Shown: piece by piece, positions 50,830 through 63,552 of the stretch
How positions within the stretch are numbered: position 1 is the stretch's first letter
How the letters are laid out: every line of letters starts with the position of its first letter
Origin: Sanguibacter sp. HDW7
Lineage (GTDB): Bacteria; Actinomycetota; Actinomycetes; Actinomycetales; Cellulomonadaceae
Reading direction: 5' to 3'
Length of the DNA: 64,000 nucleotides
Assembly: GCF_011300875.1 (NCBI RefSeq)
Contig: NZ_CP049862.1
Span: 1,736,001 to 1,800,000 of the forward strand
Program-made: the position numbers and the translations under genes
The notes under the pieces: generated by a model
What the model was told of the DNA's origin: nothing
Databases searched by the model: none
Seen by the model: only the letters and a program-made list of their open reading frames with translations

Positions 50830-50901
50830 GCGGATGTGGCTCAGTGGTAGAGCATCACCTTGCCAAGGTGAGGGTCGCGGGTTCGAATCCCGTCATCCGC
50901 T
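50830..50901 (+). tRNA. tRNA-Gly(GCC), copy 1
   Basis: Acceptor GCGGATG/CATCCGC, anticodon stem TCACC/GGTGA with loop TTGCCAA (anticodon GCC), T arm CGGGTTCGAATCCCG. No encoded CCA. Identical to the copy at 51562. Confidence 0.95.
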
Positions 50902-50939
50902 CGGAGACGAGCGCCGGTTCGCCGGTTCGCGTAGTCCAC

Positions 50940-51010
50940 GGTGGAGTGGCCGAGAGGCGAGGCAGCGGCCTGCAAAGCCGTACACACGGGTTCGAATCCC
51001 GTCTCCACCT
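50940..51010 (+). tRNA. tRNA-Cys(GCA)
   Basis: Acceptor GGTGGAG/CTCCACC, anticodon loop CTGCAAA with anticodon GCA, T arm CGGGTTCGAATCCCG. No encoded CCA. It is present only in the first group. Confidence 0.93.
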
Positions 51011-51027
51011 CGCAGCAGCACAACTCT

Positions 51028-51099
51028 GGGCGATTGGCGCAGCGGTAGCGCGCTTCCCTGACACGGAAGAGGTCACTGGTTCGATCCCAGTATCGCCCA
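51028..51099 (+). tRNA. tRNA-Val(GAC), copy 1
   Basis: Acceptor GGGCGAT/ATCGCCC, anticodon stem CTTCC/GGAAG with loop CTGACAC (anticodon GAC), T arm CTGGTTCGATCCCAG. No encoded CCA. Identical to the copy at 51714. Confidence 0.95.
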
Positions 51100-51104
51100 C
51101 AGCA

Positions 51105-51132
51105 CGAAGGCCACCCCTCGGGGTGGCCTTCG
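51105..51132 (+). terminator. Terminator of the first tRNA group
   Basis: CGAAGGCCACCCC pairs with GGGGTGGCCTTCG, 6 nt after tRNA-Val. The same stem follows the second tRNA-Val. Confidence 0.8.
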
Positions 51133-51172
51133 TCGTTCCCGGCGACGCCACCGCCGTACGCGACAGAACCGG

Positions 51173-51260
51173 CCTGCTGCCGGCAGGCCTCTGGCGTGCT
51201 GCCGGCAGGCCCCGGACCGGCTCCTCGCGGGCCCTGATCCGGCTCCCGGCGGGCCCGATC
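51173..51260. repeat. Four diverged 22-bp tandem repeats
   Basis: Units begin at 51173, 51195, 51217 and 51239. The first two share TGCTGCCGGCAGGCC (15 nt), which contains the palindrome CTGCCGGCAG; the last two share CCGGCTCC and GCGGGCCC at the same phase. Confidence 0.75.
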
Positions 51261-51291
51261 CGGCCGTGGCCCGCGACGCCCCTCCTTCTCG

Positions 51292-51340
51292 ACGGATTGA
51301 CGCTGGCCCACCGTCGAGCGGAAGTCCAGCGTCAATCCGT
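51292..51340. repeat. Perfect 15-bp inverted repeat, 19-nt spacer
   Basis: ACGGATTGACGCTGG (51292-51306) and CCAGCGTCAATCCGT (51326-51340). It is less GC-rich than its surroundings. Confidence 0.85.
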
Positions 51341-51369
51341 GCCTGCCCCAGCTCGGGCCGCCGGGCGCT

Positions 51370-51441
51370 GCGACAGGCTCGTCGACGAGAGCGGCGACAG
51401 GGACGCCGACGAGTGCGGCGACGGGCTCGGCGACAGTGAAC
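51370..51441. repeat. Three 24-bp tandem repeats
   Basis: Units begin at 51370, 51394 and 51418, each starting GCGACRGG and containing GRCGA. On the minus strand one frame reads as an eight-residue repeat (EPVAALVG, VPVAALVD, EPVAAPGG), but no gene context supports translation. Confidence 0.7.
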
Positions 51442-51488
51442 GGCACCTGCTCCGGCGTACCCGTCACGCACCGCGCGCTTCCGCCGTT

Positions 51489-51518
51489 TTGGAGAACGGT
51501 GCCTGCGTGGACTATCTT
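51489..51518 (+). promoter_or_regulatory. Promoter of the second tRNA group
   Basis: TTGGAG (51489-51494), 18 nt, TATCTT (51513-51518), 43 nt before tRNA-Gly. Confidence 0.55.
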
Positions 51519-51561
51519 TAGTGAGCACCGCGCGGCCCGGGAAACCGGATCGCGATGGCGT

Positions 51562-51633
51562 GCGGATGTGGCTCAGTGGTAGAGCATCACCTTGCCAAGG
51601 TGAGGGTCGCGGGTTCGAATCCCGTCATCCGCT
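51562..51633 (+). tRNA. tRNA-Gly(GCC), copy 2
   Basis: Same sequence as the copy at 50830-50901 over the whole tRNA, with anticodon GCC. Confidence 0.95.
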
Positions 51634-51713
51634 CGGACGAGAATCCTTCCTCGAGCCGCCCTACGGGCGGCTCGTCGCATGGATCGGCTCCACCCCGCCT
51701 GGTTCCAGGCGTC

Positions 51714-51785
51714 GGGCGATTGGCGCAGCGGTAGCGCGCTTCCCTGACACGGAAGAGGTCACTGGTTCGATCCCAGTATCGCCCA
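51714..51785 (+). tRNA. tRNA-Val(GAC), copy 2
   Basis: Same sequence as the copy at 51028-51099, with anticodon GAC. tRNA-Cys is absent from this group; an unrelated spacer of 80 nt separates Gly and Val. Confidence 0.95.
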
Positions 51786-51790
51786 CAGCA

Positions 51791-57749: not shown

Positions 57750-58547
57750 ATGACCTCCCTGAGCGACCGGCCCACGTTCGACCTCCTCGTCGCCGAGGGT
57801 GCGACCGCGGGCGGCACGATCCTGCCCCCCGAGACCGACGAGCCCGGGCTCGGCCTTCTCCTCGCGCACCCCGCGACGAGCCGGCGCGAGGGCGCCGTGC
57901 CGGGCGCGTGGGTCCGCGCGAACATGATCTCGACGGTCGACGGCGCGGCGTGGGGCCACGACCACCGCTCGGGCTCGATCAACGGCCCCGCCGACCTGCG
58001 GGTCTTCGAGGTGCTGCGCGCCCTCGCCGACGTCGTCCTCGTCGGGGCAGGCACCGTCCGCGCCGAGGGCTACGGGCCGATCGAAGTGCCCGCCCACCTG
58101 CGCGGGCTCCGCGCGGAGCAGGGCGGGGCGGACAGGCTCGTCCTCGCCGTCGTCACGCGCTCGGGCGAGGTCCCGGAGCACCTCCGGGCGGACGCGACCG
58201 TCCTCGTCGTCACGTCGTCCGCGGGTGCGCAGCGGCTCGACGGGGCGGTCCCGCCCGAGCGGCTCGTCGTCGCCGGCACGGACGACGTCGACCTGCGCGC
58301 CGCGCTCACGGACCTCGCGGGCCGCGGCCTGCGCCGCATCCTCACCGAGGGTGGCCCGCACCTGCTCGCCGACCTCCTCGGCGACGGCCTCGTCGACGAC
58401 CTCTGCGTGACGACCAGCCCGACGGCCGCCGGTCCCGGGGCAGGCCGGATCGTCGCGGGCGACGCCGTCCCGGGCGGGGGCGGGTTGCGGCTCGCGACCC
58501 TGCTGCGGGCTCGCGACGTGCTCGTCGCCCGCTGGCGCACCGCCTGA
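57750..58547 (+). CDS. RibD C-terminal/dihydrofolate reductase-fold pyrimidine reductase family protein
   Basis: A 265-residue protein of the RibD reductase domain fold without the deaminase part. Marks: VRANMISTVDGAAWG, DLRVFEVLRALADVVLVGAGTVRAEGYG, and LRRILTEGGPHLLADLLGDGLVDDLCVTTSP. Stand-alone proteins of this kind are common in actinobacteria; the substrate is not established, and no riboflavin gene is beside it. Confidence 0.87.
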   Translation: MTSLSDRPTFDLLVAEGATAGGTILPPETDEPGLGLLLAHPATSRREGAVPGAWVRANMISTVDGAAWGHDHRSGSINGPADLRVFEVLRALADVVLVGAGTVRAEGYGPIEVPAHLRGLRAEQGGADRLVLAVVTRSGEVPEHLRADATVLVVTSSAGAQRLDGAVPPERLVVAGTDDVDLRAALTDLAGRGLRRILTEGGPHLLADLLGDGLVDDLCVTTSPTAAGPGAGRIVAGDAVPGGGGLRLATLLRARDVLVARWRTA

Positions 58548-58562: not shown

Positions 58563-59318
58563 TCAGGCCCCGGGCGCCTCTCCCCGCACGGTACCGCCCG
58601 CACGGCGGATCGTCGCGCGCGCGAGCTGGTCGGTCGAGTCGACGAAGAGCGGCTCGTCGAGCAGCCCGTGGTCGACCGCGACGACCGAGAGCTCGGTGCA
58701 TCCGAGGATGACGGCCTGCGCCCCTCGCTCGACGAGACGTTCGACCACGCCGCGCAGCGCCTCGAGGTCCGCGGGGCGGCCGGCCTTCACCTGGTCGTAG
58801 ATGATCGACGTGACGACCGCCTGGTCGGCCTCGTCGGGCACGAGCGTAGCGACGCCGTAGGCGTCGAACGCGTCCTGGTAGACGCCCGACGACGACGTCC
58901 CGCTCGTGGCGAGGAGCCCGACCGCGCGCAGCCCCGGCACGCGGTCGCGCACGGCGTCGACCGTCGTCGCGATGATCGAGACGAACGGCACCGAGATCGC
59001 GTCGAGCACCTGCTGCGTGAAGTAGTGCGCCGTGTTGCACGGCATGACGAGGAAGTCAGCGCCGAACTCCTCCAGGCGCCGGGCGTCCCGCGCGAGCACC
59101 GGGCCCGGGTCCTGCTCGGAACGGCCGAGGACGAACTCGGTGCGGTCCGGGATCGTCGCGTGGTTGAGCACGACCATGTCGACGTGGTCCTGGTCGCGCT
59201 CGGCGACCGTGAGCCGGACGACGTGGTTGAGGAAGTACGCGGTCGCGAGCGGCCCGACCCCGCCGACGACCCCGACGAAGGGGCGGGTACCAGGGGCGTT
59301 GCTTCGCTCGGACGTCAC
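58563..59318 (-). CDS. Aspartate/glutamate racemase family protein
   Basis: A 251-residue two-cysteine, PLP-independent amino-acid racemase. The catalytic cysteines are Cys94 (VMPCNTAHYF) and Cys207 (VILGCTELS), and the start GVVGGVGPLATAYFL is that of aspartate racemases. GTG 59318 lies 6 nt after TAGCAT (leaderless). It is divergent from the ATP-grasp gene with 138 nt between. Together they could make a D-amino acid and ligate it (see findings). Confidence 0.9.
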   Translation of the reverse strand: MTSERSNAPGTRPFVGVVGGVGPLATAYFLNHVVRLTVAERDQDHVDMVVLNHATIPDRTEFVLGRSEQDPGPVLARDARRLEEFGADFLVMPCNTAHYFTQQVLDAISVPFVSIIATTVDAVRDRVPGLRAVGLLATSGTSSSGVYQDAFDAYGVATLVPDEADQAVVTSIIYDQVKAGRPADLEALRGVVERLVERGAQAVILGCTELSVVAVDHGLLDEPLFVDSTDQLARATIRRAGGTVRGEAPGA

Positions 59319-59324
59319 CTCGTC

Positions 59325-59330
59325 ATGCTA
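59325..59330 (-). promoter_or_regulatory. Leaderless -10 element of the racemase (TAGCAT)
   Basis: TAGCAT, then GACGAG (6 nt), then GTG 59318 on the minus strand. Confidence 0.55.
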
Positions 59331-59396
59331 GACCCCGCGCACCCGCACAGTCGGGCGACGGACGTCCCGGCCCGGCGCCCGGATGGGGCTCCGTCG

Positions 59397-59402
59397 TAGG
59401 AT
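59397..59402 (+). promoter_or_regulatory. Probable -10 of the ATP-grasp gene (TAGGAT)
   Basis: TAGGAT lies 54 nt before ATG 59457, leaving a leader of about 48 nt with a CTGGAG ribosome-binding site. Confidence 0.45.
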
Positions 59403-59456
59403 GACAAGGCTCGCGGCGCCCCGCGCCGGTCGCTTCCCCACCTGGAGCCCCGTCGC

Positions 59457-60692
59457 ATGACCTACGGCAACGCCGAGTTCGTCCCCGTGATCCTCGGGAC
59501 GAACATCAACACGTACAACATGGCTCGCTCGCTCCACGAGGCGTTCGGCGTCCGGACCATCGCGCTCGGGCGCGCGGCCCTCCGCGAGACCGCGTCGTCG
59601 AGCATCGTCGACGTCCGTGCGCACACCAGCCTCGGGGACCCGGAGGTCGTCGTCGCGACGCTCCTCGACCTCGCGGCGGAGCTCCGCGCGGACGGACGCA
59701 CGCTCCTGCTGCTGCCGAACATCGAGTTCTACGCCGGCGTCGTCCTCGACCACCGGAATGCCCTCGAGGAGCACTACGTCATCCCGCTCGTGCGCAAGGA
59801 GCTCGCCGACCGGCTCATGCACAAGGCTCGCTTCGCGGAGCTGTGCGCCGAGCTCGGGATCCCGCACCCGCAGACCGTCGTCGTGCGACCCGGCCCGGTC
59901 GACGCGGCCCTCGGTGACGGGCTGCCCTTCGCCTACCCCGTCATCGTCAAGCCCGCAAACACCGACATCTACCCGCGGCTGCGGTTCCCTGGCAAGCAGA
60001 AGGTCTATCTCGCGGACGACGCCGCCGAGCTGCGCGACGTCGTGCGTCGCATGTTCGAGGGCGGCTACGACGACGACATCGTCGTCCAGGAGTACCTCGC
60101 GGGCGACGAGTCGGTCATGCAGGTCGTCAACACCTACTCCGACCGCCACGGACGCATGCGCTTCCTGTCGCTCGGGCAGATCGTCCTCGGCGAGCCCGAC
60201 CCAGGCCTCGTGGGCAACTACAACGCGATCGTCACGACGCACGACGACGACGTGACGGCGACCGTCCGCAGGCTCCTCGACGGCGTCGGCTACACGGGGC
60301 CCGCCAACCTCGACGTCATGATCGACACGCGGACGGGTGCGCGCACGATCCTCGAGGTGAACCTGCGCCAGGGAGCGGCGAGCTTCTACACGATGGCCGC
60401 GGGCGGCAACCTCACGCGCTGCTACGTCGACGACCTCGTCCGCGGTGACGAGCTACCCGACGTCGTCACGCAGGACGAGCGGCTCTGGCTCAACGTGCCG
60501 TACCTCGTGGCGCGCCTCTACGCGCCGCGGTCGCTGCGCCCGATGCTGCGGGCCGCGCGTCGCCACGGCATCACGCACACCCTGCGCTACGCCGCGGACC
60601 GTTCGCCCCGCAGGCTGCTCGAGCTGGCCCGTATCGACCTGCGCCGCACGCTCGACTTCGTGCGGCACGGCCGCGAGCGTCTCAACCGCTGA
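59457..60692 (+). CDS. ATP-grasp carboxylate-amine ligase, D-aspartate ligase-like
   Basis: A 411-residue ATP-grasp enzyme. The nucleotide lysine is Lys165 (YPVIVKPANTD), the adenine-contact strand is VVQEYLAGDES (about 209-219), and metal ligands lie in DVMIDTRTGARTILEVNLRQGA (Glu300, Asn302). The N-terminus VILGTNINTYNMARSLHEAFG and length resemble D-aspartate ligase (Aslfm of Enterococcus faecium), which adds D-Asp to the stem-peptide lysine. A basic helical C-terminus (360-411) may touch the membrane. Its 3' end overlaps the convergent aminotransferase gene by 11 bp. Substrate is inference. Confidence 0.8.
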   Translation: MTYGNAEFVPVILGTNINTYNMARSLHEAFGVRTIALGRAALRETASSSIVDVRAHTSLGDPEVVVATLLDLAAELRADGRTLLLLPNIEFYAGVVLDHRNALEEHYVIPLVRKELADRLMHKARFAELCAELGIPHPQTVVVRPGPVDAALGDGLPFAYPVIVKPANTDIYPRLRFPGKQKVYLADDAAELRDVVRRMFEGGYDDDIVVQEYLAGDESVMQVVNTYSDRHGRMRFLSLGQIVLGEPDPGLVGNYNAIVTTHDDDVTATVRRLLDGVGYTGPANLDVMIDTRTGARTILEVNLRQGAASFYTMAAGGNLTRCYVDDLVRGDELPDVVTQDERLWLNVPYLVARLYAPRSLRPMLRAARRHGITHTLRYAADRSPRRLLELARIDLRRTLDFVRHGRERLNR

Positions 60693-61869
60693 CGACGTCC
60701 CGGACGACCGCGGCGATCTCGCGGGCACGCTCGACCGTGACGTTCGTCGGCAGGTTGACGAGCCTGGAGATCGCGTCCTCGCTCGTCGTGAGCGTCGGGT
60801 CCCCGGGCGTGTAGCCGTACGTCGCAGGGTCCTCGACCCCGGGGAAGAGCGCCGGCCGGTACCAGCGTCCCGCGTGCACGCGCGCCGAGCCGAGCTCCGC
60901 GAGCAGCCGCTCGGCGGCGGCCTCGTCCCGCGCGAGCAGAGGGAGCCGCACGAGGGGGGATGGCTCGCCGGCACGCACCCCGTCGAGGATCGCTGACGGG
61001 ATCTCGACGATCCCGGCGAGCGCCTCGACGTACGCCGTGACGCACGCTGCTCGGCGCTCCTCGTCGGCCGCGAGCCCCGGGAGGGCAGCGGCGACCTGGG
61101 CCGTCATCCAGGCCGACGGTGCCGACGGGCTGTACGGGAGCCCGCCGCGCATCTCGACCGGGGCGATCGCGGGGTCGAGCAGCCCGGCGCGCACGAGGCC
61201 GCCCCGCAGGGTGCGCGCGACGCGCTGCGGGAGACGGTTGAGCACCCGGATCTGCGTGCGGTAGGCGCGGGCGAGCAGGTCGAGACGGCGACCCACGACC
61301 GGAAGCGCACCGAGACGGGCACGCAGCAGGTCGCCGAGCGCGCCGTCCACGAGGTCGGGCGCGACCCAGATCGCTCCGCCGAAGCGCGTCGACAGCATCT
61401 TCTCGACGCCGAAGGAGTGGATGGACACGTCCGCGTACGGTCGCCCGGCGGCGTCGCGTGCCATGCGACCGACGCAGTGCGCCGAGTCCTCGAGGAGCAG
61501 GGCGCCGATCCCGTCGGCGGCGGCGCGCAGGCCGCGCGCCGCCGCGTCGTCGACGATCCCGAAGGTGTGCTGCAGGACGACCGCGCGCGTGCGTTCGCCG
61601 ACGTCGAGCCGCGCAGGGTCGATCGCGAGCGAGCCCGGGTCGACGTCTGCGTGGACCGCCGCGTGCCCCGCGACGAGGATCGGGTCGACCGCCGTCGCGC
61701 ACGTGAGGATCTGCGTGACGACGTCGCCGGCCCCGCGGTGCTCGGCGAGCGCTCGCAGGACGACCTCCATGCCGTAGCGCGCCTTGTGGACGAGGAACCA
61801 GTCGCCCGGCTCGGTGCCCGTACGGCGTGCGAGCTCCTGGGTCACGGTCGTCGTGTCGTGCTGCGTCAT
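60682..61869 (-). CDS. DegT/DnrJ/EryC1/StrS-type aminotransferase
   Basis: A 395-residue PLP enzyme of the DegT/AHBA-synthase group. The PLP lysine is Lys157 in SIHSFGVEKMLSTRFGGAIW, with the conserved acidic EDSAHCVG at 128-134 and the end LVNLPTNVTVERAREIAAVVRD. Family members aminate keto-sugars or related ketones, but here no nucleotide-sugar gene is near. Conserved placement beside the ATP-grasp gene would suggest a shared pathway. Start ATG 61869 gives the expected length. Confidence 0.82.
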   Translation of the reverse strand: MTQHDTTTVTQELARRTGTEPGDWFLVHKARYGMEVVLRALAEHRGAGDVVTQILTCATAVDPILVAGHAAVHADVDPGSLAIDPARLDVGERTRAVVLQHTFGIVDDAAARGLRAAADGIGALLLEDSAHCVGRMARDAAGRPYADVSIHSFGVEKMLSTRFGGAIWVAPDLVDGALGDLLRARLGALPVVGRRLDLLARAYRTQIRVLNRLPQRVARTLRGGLVRAGLLDPAIAPVEMRGGLPYSPSAPSAWMTAQVAAALPGLAADEERRAACVTAYVEALAGIVEIPSAILDGVRAGEPSPLVRLPLLARDEAAAERLLAELGSARVHAGRWYRPALFPGVEDPATYGYTPGDPTLTTSEDAISRLVNLPTNVTVERAREIAAVVRDVVSG

Positions 61870-61983: not shown

Positions 61984-63417
61984 TCAGGCGTCGGACTCGG
62001 TCCGGTCGCCCGACCACTCGGTGTGGAAGACGCCGCCCTTGTCGACACGCTGGTACGTGTGCGCTCCGAAGAAGTCGCGCTGCGCCTGGATGAGGTTCGC
62101 GGGCAGACGCTCGGCACGCACGCCGTCGTAGTAGGCGAGCGACGACGAGAACGCGGGCGTCGGGACGCCGTTGAGCGCCGCCTGCGCGACGATCCTGCGC
62201 CACGCGCCTACACCCTGGCCGACCTGCTCCGTGAAGTACGGGTCGGCGAGGAGCAGCGAGAGCTCCGGGTTGCGCTCGTAGGCCTCGGTGATGCGGTTGA
62301 GGAAGCGGGCGCGGATGATGCAGCCGCCGCGCCAGATGCGCGCCATGGCGCCACGGTCGATGTTCCAGCCGAGCTCGGCCGACGCCGCGGCGATCTGGTC
62401 GAAGCCCTGCGAGTACGCGACGACCTTCGACGCGAACAGCGCGAGGCGCACGTCCTCGATGAACGCGGCGCGGTCGGTGACGGCCCACGAGCCTGCCTCG
62501 GCGGGCAGGACACGGCCGGCCTCGCGCTGCGGGACCGAGCCCGAGAGAGCGCGCGCGAACGTCGCCTCGGCGATGCCTGTGATCGGCACGCCCAGGTCGA
62601 GGGCGTTCTGGACCGTCCAGCGGCCCGTGCCCTTCTGCTCGGCGCGGTCGAGCACGATGTCGACGAAAGCCTTGCCGGTCTCGGCGTCGACGTGCGCGAG
62701 GACGTCGGCCGTGATCTCGATGAGGAACGACTCGAGGTCGCCCTTGTTCCACTCGGCGAAGATCTCGGCGATCTCGGCCGCCGAGGCACCCAGACCCTGC
62801 TTGAGCAGGTCGTAGGCCTCGGCGATGAGCTGCATGTCGGCGTACTCGATGCCGTTGTGCACCATCTTGACGAAGTGGCCGGCGCCGTCCGGGCCGACGT
62901 ACGTGCAGCACGGGACACCGTCGACCTTGGCCGAGATGTCCTCGAGGATCGGGCCGAGCCACTCGTAGGACTCGGGCGAGCCGCCGGGCATGATCGAGGG
63001 GCCGTTGAGTGCACCCTCCTCGCCGCCGGAGACGCCGGTGCCGACGAAGTGCAGGCCGTGGGCCTTGAGCTCGGCCTCGCGGCGACGCGTGTCGGGGAAG
63101 TGCGCGTTGCCCGCGTCGATGACGATGTCGCCCTCCTCGAGGAGGGGGACGAGCTCGGCGATGACGGCGTCCGTCGCGGCGCCCGCCTTCACCATGATGA
63201 CGACCTTGCGGGGCCGTGCGAGCGAGGCGACGAAGTCAGCCATCGACTCCGAGGCGACGAAGTCGCCGTCGTCACCGTGGTCGGCGACGAGCGAGGCCGT
63301 CTTGGCGTAGGAGCGGTTGTGCACCGCGACCGTGTAGCCGTGACGTGCGAAGTTGCGGGCAAGGTTGCGGCCCATCACCGCAAGCCCTGTGACGCCGATC
63401 TGGGCGCGTGCCGTCAT
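61984..63417 (-). CDS. gnd: 6-phosphogluconate dehydrogenase (decarboxylating)
   Basis: Gnd oxidises 6-phosphogluconate to ribulose 5-phosphate in the pentose phosphate pathway, making NADPH. The 477-residue protein has the Rossmann start IGVTGLAVMGRNLARNFARHG, GTGVSGGEEGALNGPSIMPGG, the catalytic lysine in GHFVKMVHNGIEYADMQLI, and the C-terminal RDFFGAHTYQRVDKGGVFHTEWSG. The frame is open upstream, but ATG 63417 follows GGAGGGAGAG and gives the family N-terminus. Full length. Confidence 0.97.
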   Translation of the reverse strand: MTARAQIGVTGLAVMGRNLARNFARHGYTVAVHNRSYAKTASLVADHGDDGDFVASESMADFVASLARPRKVVIMVKAGAATDAVIAELVPLLEEGDIVIDAGNAHFPDTRRREAELKAHGLHFVGTGVSGGEEGALNGPSIMPGGSPESYEWLGPILEDISAKVDGVPCCTYVGPDGAGHFVKMVHNGIEYADMQLIAEAYDLLKQGLGASAAEIAEIFAEWNKGDLESFLIEITADVLAHVDAETGKAFVDIVLDRAEQKGTGRWTVQNALDLGVPITGIAEATFARALSGSVPQREAGRVLPAEAGSWAVTDRAAFIEDVRLALFASKVVAYSQGFDQIAAASAELGWNIDRGAMARIWRGGCIIRARFLNRITEAYERNPELSLLLADPYFTEQVGQGVGAWRRIVAQAALNGVPTPAFSSSLAYYDGVRAERLPANLIQAQRDFFGAHTYQRVDKGGVFHTEWSGDRTESDA

Positions 63418-63552
63418 CGTGTGAACTCTCCCTCCAGATGAACATGTTCCGCCTGCGAGGATATCGCGCGCCCCTCGCGGCCCGCCCCGGCGACCAGCAT
63501 GTGTCCGCCACCGTCCGCGGCGTGGCGCGCCCCGGGGCGCTTCGCCGATGCC

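Follow-up and report, generated by a model that had tools for sequence, protein, structure and literature searches.

A candidate enzyme module for cell wall cross-bridges in an actinobacterium, including a DegT-family enzyme that may supply D-serine

Three neighboring genes in the actinobacterium Sanguibacter sp. HDW7 look like part of the machinery that builds the short peptide bridge of its cell wall. One of them, from a family known for making amino-sugars, seems to be an unrecognized bridge enzyme that may supply D-serine. The genes lie in a stretch of 64,000 nucleotides (contig NZ_CP049862.1, positions 1,736,001 to 1,800,000), which we refer to as the window and to which all coordinates below refer. 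The genus is Flavimobilis: a genome of the same genus (designated G102; G numbers denote genomes examined in this study) has a contig of the same length (178,929) as the named Flavimobilis rhizosphaerae record. A preliminary description had proposed that the racemase and the ATP-grasp ligase encoded here form a D-amino-acid bridge pair, and our analysis supports that proposal. It saw no obvious role for the adjacent DegT-type enzyme, which it suggested may point to an undescribed modification; conservation shows that this enzyme belongs to the module.

The racemase gene (58563 to 59318, minus strand; P0001) encodes a 251-aa aspartate/glutamate racemase family protein that matches PF01177 with an E value of 2e-43 (149 bits against a cutoff of 31). 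Both catalytic-type cysteines are present, Cys94 in MPCNTAH (codon at 59037 to 59039, minus) and Cys207 in GCTELS (codon at 58698 to 58700, minus), and they align with those of aspartate racemase 1jfl (E = 2.7e-53). The ATP-grasp gene (59457 to 60692, plus strand; P0002) encodes 411 aa and is divergent from the racemase, with 138 bases between them. It has no Pfam hit and only weak NCBIfam ATP-grasp hits, but tblastn gave full-length hits to lactobacillus proteins, two of which are annotated "carboxylate--amine ligase." The DegT gene (60682 to 61869, minus strand; P0003) encodes 395 aa and converges on the ATP-grasp gene, the last 11 bases overlapping (60682 to 60692). P0003 matches PF01041 over residues 33 to 169 with an E value of 1.3e-17 (64.5 bits against 19.8). 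Its predicted pyridoxal phosphate (PLP) lysine, K157 (codon at 61399 to 61401, minus), and D128 are invariant in 25 aligned members. The locus is flanked by a 6-phosphogluconate dehydrogenase gene (61984 to 63432, minus) and, on the other side, by a gene for a RibD_C-type reductase (57750 to 58547, plus), and both flanks are conserved in the family. That the same neighbors recur in many genera is far beyond chance.

The racemase and the ligase are a conserved pair. Of 198 genomes surveyed, 30 of the 31 with the strongest racemase matches have the two genes within 1.6 kb of each other. P0002 is homologous to the lactobacillus D-aspartate ligase family, with 28.7 to 31.3% identity over 93 to 99% of the length to L. 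curvatus, L. fermentum, and L. crispatus proteins (E = 2e-55 to 7e-66), although that these are D-Asp species rests on a review's statement about "most lactobacilli." In a tree, P0002 nests with lactobacillus and bifidobacterium-type ligases (support, 100/99). The Latilactobacillus curvatus ligase, to which P0002 is 28.7% identical over 99%, lies next to a racemase and aspS. No second ligase of this family was found by a profile search of the genome. The closest known systems are Aslfm of Enterococcus faecium and AslA-RacD of Lactococcus lactis, in which an ATP-grasp ligase has a linked aspartate racemase; in L. lactis, racD and aslA share an operon (PMC4155827). In a comparison that did not include the Aslfm sequence itself, the locus studied here differs in that the racemase is divergent from the ligase and not in one operon with it, in that a DegT-type PLP enzyme and usually FemAB are added, and in that a pocket arginine of the ligase is replaced by alanine.

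In 8 of 9 genomes matched to a published wall type, the presence of the racemase agreed with aspartate in the wall. The exception was size-matched Actinotalea carbonis, for which D-Glu is reported but which carries a racemase and a ligase reading GR-S at the pocket. Two cruder records also disagree. G172 (probably Timonella) has the racemase, but a coarse list of its wall constituents names only Ala, Glu, and glucosamine. The wall type of the strain studied here was not found, and the genus description gives "meso-A2pm" together with "A4alpha" (PMC6113628), which, as these terms are usually defined, appear not to fit each other. D-Asp in the bridge of this strain is probable rather than established. 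The racemase passes the NCBIfam cutoff for CuyB, a cysteate racemase (235.8 bits against 190), and might have no part in the wall. However, it also passes the general amino acid racemase model (223.9 against 93.1), and the racemase of a Latilactobacillus racemase-ligase pair scores 185 on the CuyB model, so the model does not tell these apart. Given also the linkage to the ligase in 30 of 31 genomes, we consider this alternative very unlikely.

The DegT-type enzyme is very likely a working part of the module. In 47 of 47 loci examined, from two classes of Actinomycetota, the DegT gene lies within 1,241 bp of an Asl-type ligase gene. FemAB was present in the stretch in 43 of these 47 loci, against 9 of 37 ligase loci without DegT, and MurJ was present in 16 of the first 29. 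In one draft genome (G765), DegT and the ligase are carried by a single reading frame of 836 aa. Exchange at one site was also seen. Between G860 (with DegT) and G827 (without DegT), which have the same genus label, FemAB is 96.9% and gnd 97.5% identical, but the ligase only 34.4%. Between Cellulosimicrobium protaetiae and G828, FemAB is 89.8% and the racemase 81.9% identical, but the ligase only 35.7%. With FemAB and racemase kept, what changes is ligase plus DegT, as expected if DegT changes the acceptor residue. DegT is not tied to D-Asp only, as it occurs both with and without the racemase.

DegT could instead be an ordinary nucleotide-sugar aminotransferase for a wall glycan that lies beside the ligase only because wall genes cluster. 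Indeed, its nearest solved relatives are sugar aminotransferases and dehydratases (the family includes DesI, CalS13, and perosamine synthases), and its NCBIfam hits are of the same kind. However, all NCBIfam scores are far below the cutoffs (best for P0003, 38.9 bits against 650). Pfam and NCBIfam match mainly the N-terminal part, and sugar-enzyme motifs of the C-terminal half were not recognizable by eye. No sugar-nucleotide dehydratase was among the neighbors named by Pfam, although most neighbors were not named. The adjacency, the single reading frame, and the exchange together with the ligase are more than clustering, and we regard this explanation as unlikely. AlphaFold2 models of DegT and of the ligase, built from two-sequence alignments, failed (mean pLDDT, 34.6 and 41.8). 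Two scans of viral contigs found no relative of either protein, and the plasmid collection searched had no relative of P0003 and, with a Coriobacteriia-like member, only partial matches.

The ligases also differ at one pocket position. P0002 has the motif E300-x-N302-x-R304-x-G306-A307-A308-S309 (60354 to 60383, plus) and so reads GAAS. We observed, although it is not a published criterion, that D-Asp-type members share GR-S at this place, which P0002 lacks. Position 307 is Arg in 66 of 66 ligases without DegT nearby, whereas Arg was lost in 27 of 47 DegT-linked rows. This loss represents about three events on the tree, so the count overstates independence, and it does not define DegT partners because 20 of 47 rows keep Arg or, in two, GRSS. 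Loss of the arginine only in DegT-linked ligases, together with the absence of a racemase from the stretch in Yimella and G145, might mean that DegT makes a novel acid or amino acid that replaces D-Asp or D-Glu as ligase substrate, the racemase being a relic or serving something else. This is improbable given the rows that keep the arginine, the conservation of the racemase in Cellulosimicrobium and two Flavimobilis, and the D-Asp reported for Actinotalea ferrariae.

Our preferred interpretation, to which we give a probability of only about 0.4, is that DegT makes the D-serine reported in some such bridges. That the locus builds the side branch of the peptidoglycan precursor is itself very likely. 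In this scheme, a FemAB-type transferase, whose gene is about 3.6 kb from DegT and just outside the window, adds an L-amino acid, probably serine, to the side-chain amine of the third stem residue. DegT would make that residue D-serine, most simply by inverting the exposed N-terminal serine on the precursor. The racemase would turn L-Asp into D-Asp, and the ligase would join D-Asp to the D-Ser amine. Relatives without the racemase are read as adding D-Glu. The order of steps, the substrates, and the inversion are inferred.

Published wall types (PMC8878594 for Actinotalea) are compatible with this scheme but do not establish it; it rests on one documented positive. A. ferrariae (L-Orn-D-Ser-D-Asp), matched by rounded genome size and contig count, has racemase, ligase, DegT, and FemAB. 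Among matched relatives without serine, Actinotalea bogoriensis (L-Orn-D-Asp) has racemase and ligase only, and A. carbonis (L-Orn-D-Glu) lacks DegT and FemAB. Xylanimonas (X. cellulosilytica; L-Lys-D-Asp) and Cellulomonas flavigena (D-Asp) lack DegT and, in the stretch read, FemAB. Sanguibacter keddieii (L-Lys-Ser-D-Glu, the chirality of Ser unstated) has FemAB and an Asl-type ligase, reading GRNN, near gnd, but no DegT at E = 1e-25. Three other Actinotalea with reported D-Ser (A. fermentans, A. solisilvae, and A. subterranea) were not recognized among the genomes searched, so a negative could be hidden. In addition, DegT-positive Yimella belongs to a family described as Gly-L-Ser-D-Asp, that is, with L-Ser, and with D-Asp although no racemase adjoins, and 4 of the 47 DegT loci show no FemAB in the stretch.

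It is also possible, though less likely, that DegT acts on a free metabolite, making free D-serine or another unusual amino acid by transamination or racemization that a ligase then adds. The PLP site is intact, and free D-Asp plus ligase is the known logic (PMC4155827). However, only one of the 47 DegT loci (in G602) shows a second ligase in the stretch, so a two-residue bridge would still need FemAB, which probably uses aminoacyl-tRNA. In the most novel form of our preferred interpretation, to which we give slightly less weight, DegT may be a fold-type I PLP enzyme that acts as a peptidoglycan precursor epimerase, inverting the L-serine placed by FemAB to give D-Ser, which a co-adapted Asl-type ligase then caps with D-Asp or D-Glu, and it may travel with that ligase as an exchangeable cassette across Actinomycetota.

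The pairing of a racemase with an Asl-type ligase is already known; what is new here is the DegT-type partner. As far as our literature searches go, how D-serine enters such bridges is unassigned. A conserved, fused, and exchangeable PLP partner of the ligase gives a specific gene to which this step might be assigned, might make bridge type predictable from genomes, and would be a new activity for a family known for sugar chemistry.

The three genes lie at 58563-61869, as the preliminary description had placed them. P0001 (58563-59318, minus strand) is an Asp/Glu racemase with two catalytic-type cysteines, P0002 (59457-60692, plus strand) is an ATP-grasp protein, and P0003 (60682-61869, minus strand) is a DegT-type PLP protein whose gene overlaps the end of the P0002 gene by 11 bases. 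The window, 1736001-1800000 of contig C1, comes from a single-contig genome of 3.35 Mb (G000). Another genome of the same genus, G102, has a contig of the same length as a named Flavimobilis rhizosphaerae record. Elsewhere in the window, at 50830-51786, tRNA-Gly(gcc) and tRNA-Val(gac) each occur twice (at 50830 and 51562, and at 51028 and 51714, respectively) with pairwise equal Rfam scores and with tRNA-Cys between them, which is probably a local duplication.

P0002 has no Pfam match but matches lactobacillus ligases over nearly its whole length. In Latilactobacillus curvatus, that gene lies next to an amino acid racemase and aspS, as AslA and RacD share an operon in L. lactis (PMC4155827). 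In Lactobacillus crispatus (locus L144), the ligase gene follows an asnB-type asparagine synthase, which recalls the AsnH amidation of D-Asp in L. lactis (PMC4155827). A profile of the family found no second member in the window's genome at E 0.001, and a PF01177 search of the genome found P0001 and one more member.

We next asked how often the racemase and the ligase occur together. P0002 relatives are in 89 of the 198 genomes of the order. P0001 has some match in 151 of the 198, but most of these are distant. Of the 31 genomes whose best match is E 7e-42 or better, 30 have it within 1.6 kb of the ligase, as determined by comparing coordinates; the exception is genome G036. The P0002-like ligase of genome G172 (L067:9941-11210) is split over two frames, reflecting a frameshift either in the genome or in the assembly.

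We then compared the presence of the racemase to published wall types. Three Actinotalea genomes were matched to species by rounded size and contig count within one genus: A. ferrariae (G950), A. bogoriensis (G928), and A. carbonis (G916). The racemase (a P0001 match at E 1e-40 or better) is present in genomes G199, G844 (Xylanimonas), G993, G950, and G928 and absent from genomes G197, G202, and G224; eight agree. One disagrees: G916 has the racemase although its bridge is reported as D-Glu. Note that for B. avium the paper reports aspartic acid by TLC without chirality. Two cruder records also do not fit. Yimella sp. cx-51 (G094, named by an identical plasmid) has no adjacent racemase, although its family is described with D-Asp. 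G172, probably Timonella senegalensis (its contigs sum to 3,009,940 against 3,010,102 reported), has the racemase, although a coarse wall list names no Asp. Both have or may have other explanations; Yimella has a distant racemase-family gene elsewhere.

At P0002 positions 306-309, ligases without DegT nearby read GR-S or GR-N. All 31 such genomes with an adjacent racemase have a GR-S copy, whereas of 18 without, 11 have only GR-N and 7 have a GR-S copy. The six Brachybacterium genomes read with racemase and two whole ligase copies have one of each, and five without have two GR-N copies. We interpret S as D-Asp and N as D-Glu. However, tandem GR-S and GR-N ligases with a racemase are found at loci L222 (G844), L215 (G948), and L253 (G821), and the extra GR-N copy of Xylanimonas (G844) is not explained by its reported L-Lys-D-Asp bridge.

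DegT is part of the module. Strong homologues of P0003 (51-80% identity) are in only four other genomes of the 198, each next to a P0002-like ligase; the next matches are at E 1e-13 or worse. A profile search found homologues in another class, in 24 of 246 genomes at E 1e-25, and all 24 are also among the 139 of 246 with an Asl-type ligase at E 1e-40. Many of the Coriobacteriia-like ligase hits (those of genomes G803, G777, G721, and others) are listed with one TAG inside the matched stretch and an open frame of 421 aa. In the window's family, 29 of 200 genomes have DegT. We read 47 DegT loci: all 5 of the order survey, all 24 of the class survey, 17 of the family survey (seven family positives were not read), and G950. 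In 47 of 47, an Asl-type ligase lies 0-1,241 bp away (median, 76), and FemAB is in the stretch in 43. Genome G933, whose DegT is cut by contig ends, also has the ligase beside it but is not counted. Of 37 ligase loci without DegT, 9 have FemAB, but the contrast is biased because 22 of these 37 were picked for carrying the racemase. MurJ is in 16 of the first 29 DegT loci. FemAB was checked by Pfam in five cases, one of them just below the cutoff, and MurJ in two; the other assignments rest on tblastn. In the window's genome, the FemAB gene lies 3.6 kb from DegT, beyond the window end. At locus L159 (genome G602), two Asl-type ligases lie on either side of DegT, near FemAB and MurJ. In G765, a 130-contig draft genome, DegT and ligase form one open frame of 836 aa, although an internal start is not excluded.

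Comparisons of related genomes indicated cassette exchange. Genomes G145 and G187 share a genus label and flanking genes, but G187 has two ordinary ligases where G145 has DegT plus a P0002-like ligase. Genomes G860 and G827 also share a genus label; FemAB is 96.9% and gnd 97.5% identical, but the ligases are only 34.4% identical. G860 has DegT and no racemase in the stretch, and G827 has racemase and no DegT. Between Cellulosimicrobium protaetiae (G892, named by an identical plasmid) and genome G828, the identities are 89.8% for FemAB, 81.9% for the racemase, and 35.7% for the ligase, and DegT is only in the former. Of six Flavimobilis genomes, four have DegT (G000, G102, G867, and G890), and of these, only G000 and G102 have the racemase at E 1e-40.

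The ligases also appear to be coadapted to DegT. The arginine after the conserved N-x-R-x-G is kept in 66 of 66 ligase rows without DegT and lost in 27 of 47 with it (26 Ala and 1 Lys; two rows were dropped). On the tree these are about three losses, so the Fisher value (1e-13) overstates the evidence. The ligase tree needs four changes for DegT linkage, and P0002 sits with lactobacillus ligases and with those of genomes that we tentatively take to be bifidobacterium-like, far from the resident type. In the P0002 clade, all 10 loci with racemase read A or C at position 308, and all 13 without read T, but a single change explains this.

Because FemAB and racemase can stay while ligase and DegT change together, DegT should act between FemAB and the ligase. 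D-Ser has been reported in Actinotalea bridges (PMC8878594). A. ferrariae (D-Ser-D-Asp) has DegT and FemAB, and A. bogoriensis and A. carbonis (no Ser) have neither; Xylanimonas and C. flavigena (no Ser) have neither in what was searched. S. keddieii has FemAB and Ser but no DegT. Cellulosimicrobium cellulans and Oerskovia would also fit if, as appears to be the case, their bridges are L-Lys-D-Ser-D-Asp and L-Lys-L-Thr-D-Asp, respectively. However, there is only one documented D-Ser positive, matched by rounded size, and there were no wall data for the Coriobacteriia-like members, a class assignment that we made from size and family pattern. From these genomic comparisons alone, we therefore propose, tentatively, that DegT makes the bridge serine D, most simply on the precursor. 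No paper that ties a DegT enzyme to the bridge was found, although only part of the literature was covered. The PLP lysine and aspartate of DegT are invariant in 25 members, as are R31, R135, W336, Y337, and R338. Its nearest solved relatives are sugar enzymes, so this would be a new activity.
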